The notes below the pieces were generated by a model. The model was not told where the DNA came from. It did no database searches and saw nothing but the letters and a program-made list of their open reading frames with translations. A stretch of 64,000 nt of DNA, from positions 806,001 through 870,000 of the forward strand of contig NZ_VOBC01000001.1 in the NCBI RefSeq assembly GCF_008369195.1, written 5' to 3'. Of the stretch, positions 10,728-15,877 are shown in pieces; the first letter of the stretch is position 1; each line of letters starts with the position of its first letter. Source of the DNA: Sporosarcina sp. ANT_H38 (lineage in GTDB: Bacteria > Bacillota > Bacilli > Bacillales_A > Planococcaceae). A program made the position numbers and the translations under genes.

Positions 10728-10967
10728 TATATTTCCTCCAGTTGTTGTCAATCAAAAAAAGTGTCTCAAAAGCACTCTGTTTTAGACGTTATTCCTGCGA
10801 ACAAGTTTCATTGGCAATAAAAGAATATAAAATGCGGAATTTTGTTACTATATTGCCGATAAATATTTCAATCAAATTTTCTATTTCAATTATTTAGATT
10901 GAATGTCAAGTTATTCATGTATATAATTACTAGATATATTATACTTAAAATAGAATGGATGATACCT

Positions 10968-11771
10968 ATGCTAAAAGAATCAATTGAATTTCGAAATAAC
11001 GTAAAAATATACGGTGAGGGAACAAAAACGATAATGTTTGCACACGGATTTGGCTGTGATCAGCAAGTTTGGAACAGAATCACACCTGCATTTGAACAGG
11101 ACTTTAAAATAGTTCTTTTTGATTACGTTGGATCTGGCCATTCAGATAAAAGTGCGTATAAGAGTGAAAGATATAGCAATCCTGCAGGGTATGCTTCAGA
11201 TATACTAGAAATTTGTGAAGCTTTTGAGTTAACCAATATCATATTTGTCGGTCATTCCATTAGCGGGATGATTGGATTACTGGCATCTATCCAGAAGCCC
11301 GAGTTGTTTGACAGGCTTTGTCTTATAAGCCCATCACCGCGTTACATAAACGAACCGGGTTATCCGGGTGGTTTTGAAATAGAGGATATTAACGAATTAC
11401 TGGAAATGATGGAGAAAAACTACAAGGAATGGGTGAAATATTTGGCGCCTGTTGCTTCAAAAAATCCTAGTCGGCCAGAGTTAACGGAAGAATTCGAAGT
11501 TATGTTAATGTCAAATGATCAATTAATCGTTAGGCAATTTTGTGAAATGACCTTTAACATTGATGTCCGAAGTGAACTAACTAAAGTAGTCAGACCATCA
11601 CTCATTCTTCAGACAAAAGAAGATTCTATAGTACCTATTGAGATTGGTGAGTATTTGCATTCGCATATCGCTAACAGCAACTATATATTAATGGAGGCTA
11701 CTGGCCATAATCCGCATTTAAGCGCTCCTACTGAAACAATTCAGCATATTAAACATTTTATTAAGGGATAA
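10968..11771 (+). CDS. rsbQ: RsbQ-type alpha/beta hydrolase
   Basis: About 267 residues, closely resembling Bacillus RsbQ, the hydrolase required by the PAS phosphatase RsbP for energy-stress signalling. Conserved stretches include HGFGCDQQVWN, FDYVGSGHSD and LLEMMEKNY. The triad is the serine of GHSISG, the aspartate of TKEDSIVP and the histidine of TGHNPH. The start is probably ATG 10968 (MLKESIEF aligns with the RsbQ N-terminus); ATG 10959 is also possible. The gene is followed by a PAS-GGDEF gene, not an RsbP phosphatase: the partner output has been exchanged. The natural ligand of RsbQ is unknown. Confidence 0.88.
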   Translation: MLKESIEFRNNVKIYGEGTKTIMFAHGFGCDQQVWNRITPAFEQDFKIVLFDYVGSGHSDKSAYKSERYSNPAGYASDILEICEAFELTNIIFVGHSISGMIGLLASIQKPELFDRLCLISPSPRYINEPGYPGGFEIEDINELLEMMEKNYKEWVKYLAPVASKNPSRPELTEEFEVMLMSNDQLIVRQFCEMTFNIDVRSELTKVVRPSLILQTKEDSIVPIEIGEYLHSHIANSNYILMEATGHNPHLSAPTETIQHIKHFIKG

Positions 11772-11804
11772 AGACAGCTTAGGAATGGTGCAGGAGGTTG
11801 AAAA

Positions 11805-12767
11805 ATGGATGATCAGCTAAATTTCGCCCCGTGTGGCTATCTAACTATGGACCGTAATGGTTATATATTTGAGATGAATGCCACGCTCCAAAAAATGTTG
11901 GGACAACAAGAATTAGAATGGAATGGACAACATATTCACTCGCTATTAACGACGCCATCTCGTATTTATTATCAAACTTATTTCCTACCATTATTAGATA
12001 TTAATGGAGATGTAAATGAAATCTATTTGACATTGAAAAGTACAACGGGGAAAATTCCAGTTCTTATGAATGCCATTGAACGTAAAATAGAACACGAAAC
12101 GCGAATTGAGTGCGTTATTGTAGAAATGAAAATTAGAGATGAATATGAAAATGAACTTATTCAAGAAAGACGTAATGCTGAAAGTGTTGTTCAGAAGACA
12201 GACAAAGCCTATGAGGGCTTACAGCAATTATTAAAAGAAGTAGAGTGTAAAAAAAATGAGCTTGAGACCATCAATGAAAAACTAAAAGTGCTCGCTTTAA
12301 CAGATTCACTCACAGGATTAAAGAATAGAAGATACTTTGAAGAACAGTTATTGCTATTCATCGAGTCATACACAACTTCCCACATACCTTTTTCACTATT
12401 GGCCATAGATATTGATCATTTCAAACGTATAAATGATACTTTTGGTCATCCAATTGGAGATCTTGTCTTACAAGAAGTTTCGTTAATTTTACAAGAGTCG
12501 AAACGGCCTCACGATATAGTCGCTAGGATAGGCGGAGAAGAATTCATCATATTATTGCCGGAAACAAATCTAGAAAAAGCCTTTGACATTGCAGAATTGA
12601 CAAGGAAAAGATTTGAACTGTTTGAATGGTCTTATACTCCTTTAACAATCAGTTCAGGGGTGACAATGGTTAGGCAAGGAGATACGACTACAACAATAAT
12701 TAGAAGAACAGACGCTACCCTTTATGCATCTAAGAATGCGGGCAGAAATATAGTTTCTATTGGATGA
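11805..12767 (+). CDS. PAS-GGDEF diguanylate cyclase, likely RsbQ partner
   Basis: 320 residues. An N-terminal PAS domain (about 5-110; APCGYLTMDRNGYIFEMN) leads through a coiled coil (about 115-165) into a GGDEF domain (165-318). The active-site motif is GGEEF (243-247), and the product-inhibition I-site RxxD is present as RPHD (234-237) at the standard five-residue spacing, so the protein should make cyclic di-GMP from two GTP and be feedback-inhibited. No membrane segment is seen. It is 33 bases after the rsbQ-like gene with an AGGAGG site, so the hydrolase product probably acts on this PAS domain, by analogy with RsbQ-RsbP (inference). Confidence 0.9.
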   Translation: MDDQLNFAPCGYLTMDRNGYIFEMNATLQKMLGQQELEWNGQHIHSLLTTPSRIYYQTYFLPLLDINGDVNEIYLTLKSTTGKIPVLMNAIERKIEHETRIECVIVEMKIRDEYENELIQERRNAESVVQKTDKAYEGLQQLLKEVECKKNELETINEKLKVLALTDSLTGLKNRRYFEEQLLLFIESYTTSHIPFSLLAIDIDHFKRINDTFGHPIGDLVLQEVSLILQESKRPHDIVARIGGEEFIILLPETNLEKAFDIAELTRKRFELFEWSYTPLTISSGVTMVRQGDTTTTIIRRTDATLYASKNAGRNIVSIG

Positions 12768-12780
12768 ACGAATATCACTG

Positions 12781-12811
12781 CCCCAGGTAGTCAAAACATA
12801 CTTGGGGTTTT
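12781..12811 (+). terminator. Hairpin between the two cyclic-di-GMP genes
   Basis: CCCCAGGTA (12781-12789) pairs with TACTTGGGG (12799-12807), followed by TTTT. It would end or attenuate the rsbQ/diguanylate cyclase transcript before the HD-GYP gene. Confidence 0.7.
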
Positions 12812-12893
12812 AGTGTTTGATAAAACAGTATCCGTTATCAAATCAAAGACTTGGAAAATGATACTAAACGATGTTTGTAGAAGGGAATTAACG

Positions 12894-14048
12894 ATGAATA
12901 ACCAAAGGGAAATATTAAATAATAAAGTTCACAAAGACCTGCAATCAGATCGGATACTGGGTGTCATATTTGAATACATGGCAAAAGTATCAATGGAAAA
13001 TGATTTAGAAAAATCATTGATGATATTAGCCGATTTAGGAAAAAAACTTGTGGTAGCCGATCGTTGCTCTGTCTGGTTGTATGACACTTCGAAACAAACG
13101 ATATGGACCGTCGCAGCGCATGGCATTGAAAAAGTAATTATTCCGCAGGAAAGCGGATTTGTCGGTCATAGTATAGCAACCGGAAAAATCATCATCGTTG
13201 AGGATGCCTATTTGGATGAGCGATTTAACCAGGAAATTGATATTGAAACGGGATATAGAACGTGTTCAGTCCTCTGTATTCCTTTCCATAACAGCAATGG
13301 AACTGTAATTGGTGCATTTCAAGCGATAAATGAAATGACTGCTCAAGGTACTTTTAGTGAAAAAGATAGTGAAATATTAGGTTTAGCTGCTACGTATGCC
13401 GGTAAGTCCCTTGAGTCTGCAATTCTGTTAAAAGAAATTATCGAAACGCAAAAAGAAATGCTTGAGACTTTGGGCGAAATCGGGGAAAGTCGTTCCCAGG
13501 AAACGGGAAATCATGTGAAGCGTGTTGCATTATATTCTTATTTACTAGCTAAACTAGCTGGCATTTCTGAAGAAAAAGCCAACCTTTTGAGAGATGCATC
13601 ACCTATGCATGACATTGGTAAAGTAGCGATCCCTGACAGCATATTGCTAAAACCAGGCAAGTTAACAGTGGAAGAATTCGAAATCATGAAACAACATACG
13701 ATCATAGGTTACAATATTTTTAAAAATTCTCAACGCGATTTACTTCGCACTGCGGCAATTATTGCGTATGAGCACCATGAAAAATGGGATGGCACAGGAT
13801 ATCCAAATGGCTTAAAGGGTGAAGCGATTCATATTTTTGGACGAATTACTGCAGTTGCAGATGTTTTTGATGCACTGGGCAGCGACCGTGTTTATAAAAA
13901 AGCTTGGAAAATTGAACAGATTGTTGCGTATATGTCCGAGCAACAGGGGAAGTTTTTCGATCCGATATTGACGCAACTGTTTCTTAACAATCTTAAATTA
14001 TTTATCGCAATTCGGGACCAGCACAGTGATGTGGATAGGAGAAATTAA
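12894..14048 (+). CDS. GAF-HD-GYP cyclic di-GMP phosphodiesterase
   Basis: 384 residues. A GAF sensor domain (about 30-190) precedes an HD-GYP domain (205-375) with the metal-binding HDIGK, the HHEKWDGTGYP signature and ADVFDAL. HD-GYP enzymes degrade cyclic di-GMP to GMP, so this opposes the cyclase upstream. I start it at ATG 12894, preceded by GAAGGGA; an upstream TTG would add 27 unlikely residues. Its stop overlaps the start of the next gene (TAATG), which means tight translational coupling to the adenylate cyclase. Confidence 0.9.
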   Translation: MNNQREILNNKVHKDLQSDRILGVIFEYMAKVSMENDLEKSLMILADLGKKLVVADRCSVWLYDTSKQTIWTVAAHGIEKVIIPQESGFVGHSIATGKIIIVEDAYLDERFNQEIDIETGYRTCSVLCIPFHNSNGTVIGAFQAINEMTAQGTFSEKDSEILGLAATYAGKSLESAILLKEIIETQKEMLETLGEIGESRSQETGNHVKRVALYSYLLAKLAGISEEKANLLRDASPMHDIGKVAIPDSILLKPGKLTVEEFEIMKQHTIIGYNIFKNSQRDLLRTAAIIAYEHHEKWDGTGYPNGLKGEAIHIFGRITAVADVFDALGSDRVYKKAWKIEQIVAYMSEQQGKFFDPILTQLFLNNLKLFIAIRDQHSDVDRRN

Positions 14049-15847
14049 TGCGAAAAACAATCTGTTTTCAAGAAGAAAGAGTATTTAACATACCAATTGA
14101 GCAAATGTGGTCCTTGCTTGAAGACACCAATCAGTTGAATAAATATATAGGTTTGTTTCCAGTCCGATTTTCCCCTTTTACCCATGAAAATGGATCTCTC
14201 GTTCGACAGTCACGGGCAAAAGTATTTGGAGTGATAGAGATAGCCTGGCGTGAAAATGTATTTGAATGGATCAAACAGCAATCCTATTCAATAGAACGTG
14301 TGTATATAACAGGCCCAGCCGAGCGTGTGCTTTGGAAGGTTATTTTAGAACCACAAGGTGAAAGTAGAACTTTGTTAAGACTGAAAGGCGAGTTTACATA
14401 CCGCAATCTACTGGGCCGGCTTATCATGAAAGTGAATACAATTCCTCAATTAAGGAGGACTTTCCTTTATGCGTTGAAATTGGAGGGGAAAAGTGAAGTC
14501 ACAACAATTTTGCCACAAGCTAGGCGGACAGCTATTGTACAGAAGGAACATTTGGGGAGATTAACCGCAAAGCTTTACTCCGCCATCAGTAATAAGAAAA
14601 TGGTTGAAGAATTTATACAAACAATTGAGATGGGCAATGATAATGATGTGACGAGTATGAAGCCTCTACTATGGGCAGAGACTCATCAATATGATCGAAG
14701 GCAGACAGTCGAACTTTTTCTTGTCGCTACAAAAGTAGGGATTCTGGATCAAGAGTGGAGTCTAATGTGCCCCAATTGCCGAGTACCAAAAAGTCAGACG
14801 AATACGCTTAGACAACTAGATGATACAGTGCATTGTGATCTATGTGGAGTTGATTATGAAATCGATTTTGATCGCTATGTCGAGATGCGCTTTACTGTTA
14901 ACCCGAGTATACGGCAAGCGAGTCAGGAGTTATTCTGTATAAATGGGCCAATGAACTCTCCGCATATAGTCGCTCAATTTCGAATTCCGGGTAACTCGTC
15001 AAAGGAACTGAAATTGCCCGATTGGGATCAAAAACTGCGCTTACGCGTATTGAAGTTTAATTATACAGCTATCATTTATGAAGAAACGGATGACACCAAG
15101 TCACAATTGACAATTACAGAATCGGGAATCGCTGAAAAAGAAGTCGCTAAAACACGTTTCATGCAAGTAGAAAATCGTACTAGTCAAGAACTTGTTTTGG
15201 TAATAGAAGAAGTGGAGTGGGACCGATTTGCACTGACAGCAACTGAAGTAACTTCTCTTCAACTGTTTCGAGATTTGTTTGCGAAAGAAGTGTTATCGCC
15301 CGACCAGCAGATTGGCATTGGAAAAATGACCATTTTATTTACAGATTTAAAAGGGTCAACCCTACTTTATGAATCTATTGGAGATGCACTTGCTTATTCA
15401 GATGTGAAAAAGCATTTTGATTTTTTGAAAAAATATATTCAAGATAATAATGGCACTGTTGTTAAAACAATTGGCGATTCTGTTATGGCTGCATTCATTC
15501 GAGATAAGGATGCTTTTAATGCTGCCATTACGATACAGAAAAACATTCATTTGTTAAATGAAAATATATCACAAGCCGTGCAAGTGAAAATTGGGTTTCA
15601 CACTGGTCCTGTTATCGCTGTAAACGCAAATGAAATCCTCGATTATTTTGGGCGTACAGTGAATATGGCTGCACGAATCCAACAGCAAAGTGAGGGCAGT
15701 GATATTGTCATCAGTGAAAATGACTATCGAGATTTACTTGAGTCATCCGATATCTCACTACACGACACTTCTATTGAAATCGAATCTTTAACTAAACAAT
15801 TACACGGTGTAGATGGCGATACTTCATTAATAAGAATTCGATTATAA
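14048..15847 (+). CDS. Class III adenylate cyclase with SRPBCC N-terminus
   Basis: 599 residues. An SRPBCC-type lipid/ligand-binding domain (1-165), a middle region with a zinc ribbon (CPNC...CDLC, about 240-275) resembling DUF5939, and a C-terminal class III nucleotidyl cyclase domain (about 420-590). The metal aspartates are in FTDLKGST (D433) and IGDSVMA (D477); transition-state residues N539 and R543 are in NMAARI. The specificity pair is K474 and D532 (DYFGRTVN), the adenylate rather than guanylate pattern. So it should make cAMP, rare in Bacillales. It overlaps the HD-GYP gene by one base. The ligand of the SRPBCC domain is unknown. Confidence 0.88.
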   Translation: MRKTICFQEERVFNIPIEQMWSLLEDTNQLNKYIGLFPVRFSPFTHENGSLVRQSRAKVFGVIEIAWRENVFEWIKQQSYSIERVYITGPAERVLWKVILEPQGESRTLLRLKGEFTYRNLLGRLIMKVNTIPQLRRTFLYALKLEGKSEVTTILPQARRTAIVQKEHLGRLTAKLYSAISNKKMVEEFIQTIEMGNDNDVTSMKPLLWAETHQYDRRQTVELFLVATKVGILDQEWSLMCPNCRVPKSQTNTLRQLDDTVHCDLCGVDYEIDFDRYVEMRFTVNPSIRQASQELFCINGPMNSPHIVAQFRIPGNSSKELKLPDWDQKLRLRVLKFNYTAIIYEETDDTKSQLTITESGIAEKEVAKTRFMQVENRTSQELVLVIEEVEWDRFALTATEVTSLQLFRDLFAKEVLSPDQQIGIGKMTILFTDLKGSTLLYESIGDALAYSDVKKHFDFLKKYIQDNNGTVVKTIGDSVMAAFIRDKDAFNAAITIQKNIHLLNENISQAVQVKIGFHTGPVIAVNANEILDYFGRTVNMAARIQQQSEGSDIVISENDYRDLLESSDISLHDTSIEIESLTKQLHGVDGDTSLIRIRL

Positions 15848-15877
15848 TATTTGGAAACGACTTCAGGAGGTACTTCA

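Follow-up and report, generated by a model that had tools for sequence, protein, structure and literature searches.

Two adjacent genes in the window, the stretch of 64,000 nucleotides analyzed here (C1:806001-870000 of a 4.63 Mb host genome in 19 contigs), most likely form a bicistronic RsbQ-PAS sensing module with cyclic di-GMP as its output. The direct basis for this reading consists of the two genes themselves, the triad of the hydrolase, the residues of the PAS class, the linker length, a predicted helix, the GGEEF and RPHD motifs, the failure to find an RsbP in the host genome, and the co-occurrence of the two components in related genomes. Together these make the module the best explanation.

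Modules of this type are known. A 2011 study by Nadezhdin, Brody and Price (PMC3183031) reported 45 RsbQ-PAS modules, whose outputs are PPM phosphatases, histidine kinases or diguanylate cyclases, and those with a cyclase output were found in both Gram-positive and Gram-negative lineages. The coupling of the module to GGDEF domains and kinases was restated in 2025, with models containing two RsbP and two RsbQ (PMC12143880). The pair in the window is a further member of the module described in 2011 and is mostly ordinary. A literature search turned up no experiments on an RsbQ-cyclase pair; among the titles and abstracts searched, such a pair appears only in PMC3183031 and PMC12143880.

The rsbQ and cyclase genes

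Both genes lie where the sequence-only reading had placed them, as confirmed from the ORFs (Table 1). The best solved match of the hydrolase is B. subtilis RsbQ (1wom; 299 bits, E 1.7e-88, query residues 5-266), and next come an RsbQ-like protein from a different bacterium and plant KAI2/D14 proteins. The triad S97, D219 and H247 is intact in the alignment, in columns that we take to be the catalytic ones from the alignment to solved RsbQ and from general knowledge. Full-length similarity to solved RsbQ and the intact triad mark the protein as an RsbQ ortholog. The identification as RsbQ was thus borne out, and the resemblance to karrikin/strigolactone-type hydrolases that had been pointed out is a real kinship by sequence to KAI2/D14, as the solved-structure matches indicate. 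The Ser-Asp-His triad is intact in all 146 RsbQ rows of the tree described below. The host genome has a single RsbQ (E 5e-183), its sole other match being weak (2.8e-8, 32%).

Table 1. Features of the rsbQ-cyclase region, in window coordinates.
Feature	Position	Strand	Basis
Possible sigma-70 promoter TTGAAT-17-TATAAT upstream of rsbQ	10899..10927	+	consensus match only
RsbQ-family alpha/beta hydrolase, 267 aa	10968..11771	+	ORF, Pfam, structure-match alignment
PAS-helix-GGDEF diguanylate cyclase (predicted), 320 aa	11805..12767	+	ORF, Pfam, alignment, model
RsbP-type PAS, residues 1-108; C10, L13, L48, R53, Y55, Y56, Y59, P62, E72, P85	11805..12128	+	alignment to RsbP P0047, model
Single predicted helix, residues 112-165	12138..12299	+	model
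I-site RPHD (234-237), five residues, then GGEEF (243-247)	12504..12545	+	sequence motif
Hairpin CCCCAGGTA-loop-TACTTGGGG then TTTT, probable intrinsic terminator of the two-gene unit	12780..12811	+	sequence, fold

Pfam identifies a PAS domain (E 1.5e-6) and a GGDEF domain (E 2.3e-43) in the second protein, and the stretch from the I-site to the active site reads RPHD-IVARI-GGEEF. With a GG[DE]EF motif and an RxxD five residues upstream of it, the protein is predicted to be a diguanylate cyclase with an I-site, and the earlier description of the neighbor as a PAS protein with a GGDEF output and an intact I-site holds. Its closest named relatives are from Sporosarcina (P0130, 61%; P0193, 75% over 55% of the query). 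All 118 cyclase-type relatives among the matches listed have GGEEF, the class itself having been selected by the GG[DE]EF pattern. RxxD is found in just 50 of these 118 (among the matches listed), so the I-site is optional and no constant of the RsbQ-PAS-cyclase module. A role for the I-site as part of the module design was rejected on the same count, its absence from the other 68, which include L123.

The PAS domain and linker were compared with those of B. subtilis RsbP, for which protein P0047, located by name, served as the reference; its letters match those printed in PMC3183031 (C10, L13, L48, Q53, F55, C56, Y59, P62, E72, P86). The window protein is identical to P0047 at 64 of 160 positions (40%), and the similarity stops at residue 159, near the start of the output domain. 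Nine marker positions of the PAS class are all class-consistent in the window (C10, L13, L48, R53, Y55, Y56, Y59, E72, P85); the class consensus is basic at 53, aromatic at 55, and histidine or tyrosine at 59 (PMC3183031). The PAS domain and linker are homologous to those of RsbP. At the contact position F55 the window has a tyrosine, but 42 of the 118 cyclase-type relatives among the matches listed carry I, L, M or V there (29, 7, 4 and 2, respectively), a point against the module mechanism proposed below. No DIT motif is present at window residues 91-125, the end of the PAS domain, and a simple pattern for this motif is absent in 117 of 118 relatives among the matches listed.

The linker of the window cyclase measures 56 residues, counted from R111 up to the DxLTG motif (D167). 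The pattern was measurable in 104 of the 118 relatives and not in 14; the length is 56 in 102 of these 104 cyclases (among the matches listed), and the other two have 54 and 63. A length of 56 corresponds to eight heptads and 63 to nine; 54 does not fit. This heptad spacing would fit a coiled-coil lever, and a coiled coil of at least 21 residues leads to the output domain in 36 of the 45 published modules (PMC3183031). In an AlphaFold2 model of the cyclase (36 aligned sequences; mean pLDDT 88.5) the PAS domain extends to about residue 108 and is followed by one helix and then by the GGDEF domain, whose placement relative to the PAS domain is not to be read from a model with a pTM of 0.56. A further predicted helix, residues 50-67, lies at the F-alpha position and carries R53, Y55 and Y59.

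The gap between the rsbQ stop and the cyclase start is 33 nt and contains GGAGG. Since rsbQ is followed immediately by a gene whose product has an RsbP-type PAS at its N terminus, the pair is classed, from its sequence, as an RsbQ-PAS module. The hairpin 3' of the cyclase gene is probably an intrinsic terminator that closes the two-gene unit. Positions 12770-12825 fold at -18.9 kcal/mol versus -9.6 for shuffles (z -3.24; 2 of 200 shuffles were equally good), and a terminator consensus scan with a loop limit of 8 did not list the hairpin at 12780-12811. A sigma-70 scan gave as many promoter-like sites in the region as in shuffles and proves nothing.

Window 12813-15847 holds a GAF-HD-GYP phosphodiesterase gene, the end of which overlaps the start of a gene for an SRPBCC-DUF5939-class III nucleotide cyclase, and an MFS transporter gene begins at 15851, after the class III cyclase gene. 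The GGDEF, HD-GYP and class III cyclase ORFs share one strand, as they would if RsbQ, the cyclase, GAF-HD-GYP and the class III nucleotide cyclase formed one operon balancing the cyclic di-GMP made and destroyed. Such a large operon is considered unlikely, because the cyclase gene is separated from the HD-GYP gene by the probable terminator and because GAF, HD-GYP, SRPBCC, DUF5939 and class III cyclase matches occur in 0 of 140 relatives' regions among the matches listed; these regions mostly include about 6 kb downstream, and some end at contig ends.

RsbQ and its partners in the host family

The two-gene module was surveyed in 261 genomes of the host family, at thresholds of E<=1e-40 for RsbQ and E<=1e-6 for PAS. 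RsbQ is present in 135 of the 261 and an RsbP-type PAS in 132. Both occur in 131 genomes and neither in 125; four have RsbQ only (G088, G100, G108, G118) and one has PAS only (G055). In G055 the PAS has stops and RsbQ matches in two pieces, both being interrupted. RsbQ and PAS occur in the same genomes more often than by chance (Fisher 9e-69, uncorrected for relatedness). An order-wide search covered the same number of genomes (261) and added nothing. With the cyclase as query, a search of genome contigs kept 80 loci that were 30-48% identical, mostly over the GGDEF half, and RsbQ (E<=1e-15) or PAS (E<=1e-3) was found in 0 of 80; these loci are other GGDEF proteins and say nothing on the module outside the host family.

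Neighbors were recorded for 146 RsbQ genes in 140 regions, all from the host family and from among the matches listed. The gene after RsbQ encodes a PAS-GGDEF protein in 118 cases, a PAS-PPM protein in 13 and an RsbR-like protein in 9. The rest comprise three PAS genes with a cut or odd output (L234, L244, L251), one helicase-like gene, one opposite-strand gene and one split RsbQ. An rsbQ gene beside a GGDEF gene is therefore the commonest arrangement in the family. The proposal that the GGDEF output is a new change of wiring was rejected; the arrangement was published in 2011 (PMC3183031) and is the usual one in this survey.

At L203, RsbQ is split in two frames and followed by a PAS-GGDEF gene; it was counted once as "next to RsbQ" and left out of the tree for its length. 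L168 and L205, the second RsbQ genes of G103 and G109, have neither a PAS nor an RsbR neighbor; the former precedes a 1052-aa helicase-like ORF and the latter an opposite-strand gene. Places in G009, G235 and G015 were retrieved later and are outside the 146. In ten of eleven extra places RsbQ lies beside PAS; in three of these RsbQ is in two pieces, and one match is short near a contig end. The eleventh is L280, the PAS-phosphatase locus of G146.

Several genomes combine outputs. RsbQ-cyclase and RsbQ-phosphatase pairs occur together in G084 (L144 and L254) and in G087 (L153 and L262), which are natural two-output controls. At L199 (G197 C7), RsbQ and PAS-GGDEF are followed on the same strand by a 373-aa protein that matches a PPM phosphatase domain at 27%. 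L280 (G146 C1) encodes an RsbP-like PAS-PPM phosphatase with no RsbQ within the 4.7 kb retrieved around it, and the same genome has two RsbQ-cyclase pairs elsewhere (L231, L247), for which reason RsbQ might also serve other partners.

A FastTree phylogeny of 146 RsbQ rows (the window and 145 others) was calculated quickly and lacks a true root. The 13 phosphatase-partnered RsbQ among the matches listed form one clade on one side of a single branch with a support of 100. The label changes five times for cyclase and twice for RsbR. The sister of the window RsbQ among the tree rows is L123, which is cyclase-partnered and lacks the I-site. As far as the sequences indicate, output type and RsbQ lineage go together. 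Because the phosphatase-partnered RsbQ form one clade, nothing suggests a rewiring peculiar to the host organism, and nothing in the RsbQ tree suggests a recent output swap in the lineage of the window.

Sigma-B in the host and RsbQ beside RsbR

RsbQP is the energy branch of the sigma-B pathway (PMC9847131, PMC7522486). In that branch a PPM phosphatase follows the PAS domain; in the protein beside the window RsbQ it is absent, and Pfam finds GGDEF there instead. The host genome does have an operon that reads as STAS/stressosome proteins, RsbT, RsbU, RsbV, RsbW, SigB and an RsbX-like protein, named by order and sequence. The genome contains three SpoIIE/PPM matches. The first is RsbU, which carries the RsbU_N domain; the second, a protein of 197 aa encoded downstream of SigB, is RsbX-like by its place; the third is in a frame of 806 aa, which we take to be SpoIIE by its length only.

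The sequence-only reading would have been contradicted by an RsbP partner elsewhere that uses this RsbQ. Such a PAS-phosphatase was looked for and not found in the host genome, among the three SpoIIE/PPM matches (the 806-aa frame judged by its length) or by the PAS search, in which the RsbP-type PAS occurs once at E<=1e-6, inside the window cyclase. RsbQ could still serve sigma-B through an unrecognized phosphatase or the stressosome, the adjoining PAS-cyclase being a passenger or a second client. The sigma-B operon of the host, the paralogs in one genus that lie beside RsbR and not beside a PAS gene, and a report cited in PMC9847131 of RsbP acting with the stressosome speak for this. It is nevertheless rather unlikely, as no PAS-phosphatase is among the three matches as far as tested, the sole RsbP-type PAS sits in the cyclase, and the RsbQ-adjacent RsbR has no counterpart in the host at E<=1e-40. 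A cyclic di-GMP output remains the preferred reading. Domain matches in the host genome number 13 for GGDEF, 9 for EAL and 2 for PilZ, so the window cyclase is far from the only one, and candidate receptors are present.

The RsbR-adjacent genes are 9 of the 146 RsbQ among the matches listed (L146, L149, L161, L164, L173, L175, L176, L183, L201). All are from genus g13, called Planococcus-like after protein P0001 of G084, which is named Planococcus donghaensis, and each is followed immediately by an RsbR-type STAS gene, without an intervening PAS gene. The protein that follows has 284-301 aa; a STAS domain was found in two that were scanned and in one relative, and over its last 140 residues the scanned relative is similar to the stressosome RsbR (7b0u, E 2e-25). 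The first five of these RsbQ are the second RsbQ at a locus that also holds an RsbQ-cyclase pair. The other four are the sole RsbQ of G088, G100, G108 and G118, in which no RsbP-type PAS was found at E<=1e-6. The triad is intact in 9 of 9. In the quick tree, rooted at its midpoint, these RsbQ share an ancestor with one orphan RsbQ only (10 rows). Thirteen other loci among the matches listed have the order RsbQ, cyclase, RsbR. The available text of PMC9847131 and PMC7522486 does not mention a pairing of RsbQ with RsbR.

It is conceivable, though doubtful, that RsbQ is a portable receptor able to work without PAS, and that the g13 paralog has been re-paired with the stressosome RsbR. If so, one signal could be passed on to cyclic di-GMP, the case in the window, to an RsbV-type phosphatase, or to the stressosome itself. 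The adjacency may instead be an accident of the locus and of the loss of a cyclase gene, because RsbR keeps its downstream neighbor without RsbQ in 10 of 10 retrieved genomes, out of 18 g13 genomes with RsbR and no RsbQ, and because one of these ten (L271) has a GGDEF remnant upstream of RsbR.

Proposed mechanism and relation to known systems

In the proposed RsbQ-PAS-cyclase module, RsbQ would bind or turn over a small molecule in its Ser-Asp-His pocket and would then contact the F-alpha helix of the cyclase PAS (Y55, Y59). The change may travel along the signaling helix 112-165, which spans most of the eight heptads between R111 and D167, and, once it arrives at a GGEEF dimer, alter its activity; the I-site could provide product feedback on the cyclase. 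The same RsbQ-PAS contact in the cyclase, dimerization, the direction of the effect and the identity of the signal are all inferred. In B. subtilis, RsbP F55A and Y59A reduce the interaction with RsbQ (PMC3183031), and a need for the RsbQ triad is cited in the same paper. It offers two models, in which RsbQ delivers a ligand or the hydrolase is the sensor; both need direct RsbQ-PAS contact. When cell extract was left out, pull-downs showed no binding between purified RsbQ and RsbP (PMC3183031), which hints that the contact may require an additional factor.

The finding by itself overturns nothing known. A cyclic di-GMP output provides a read-out separate from sigma-B for finding the RsbQ signal; among the plant kin of RsbQ, KAI2 and D14 act as hormone receptors. 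Natural controls exist within the family, in genomes that have just the cyclase (the host is one), just the phosphatase, both of these, or an RsbQ accompanied by neither.

The window pair shares with the RsbQ-PAS-cyclase modules of PMC3183031 an RsbQ directly upstream, a PAS that is the most N-terminal domain, a helical linker, GGDEF, the marker residues and the lack of a DIT motif. It shows no difference of kind from them, and the named proteins closest to its cyclase are from Sporosarcina. With the B. subtilis RsbQ-RsbP energy branch of sigma-B it shares an orthologous RsbQ and a homologous PAS and linker; it differs in having GGDEF where RsbP has a PPM phosphatase, and no RsbP was found in the host. 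The plant karrikin and strigolactone receptors KAI2 and D14 belong, by their sequences, to the same alpha/beta hydrolase subfamily as the window RsbQ, but they work with F-box proteins and are not known to pair with a PAS domain. In Moorella thermoacetica, the RsbU-N/GAF/GGDEF protein MtG is controlled by RsbT (Quin et al. 2012, as cited in PMC12143880). MtG and the window cyclase are alike in that, by way of a helical linker, a diguanylate cyclase appears to have acquired a sigma-B-type sensory partner by a swap, whereas MtG has another partner, RsbT, and another sensor domain.
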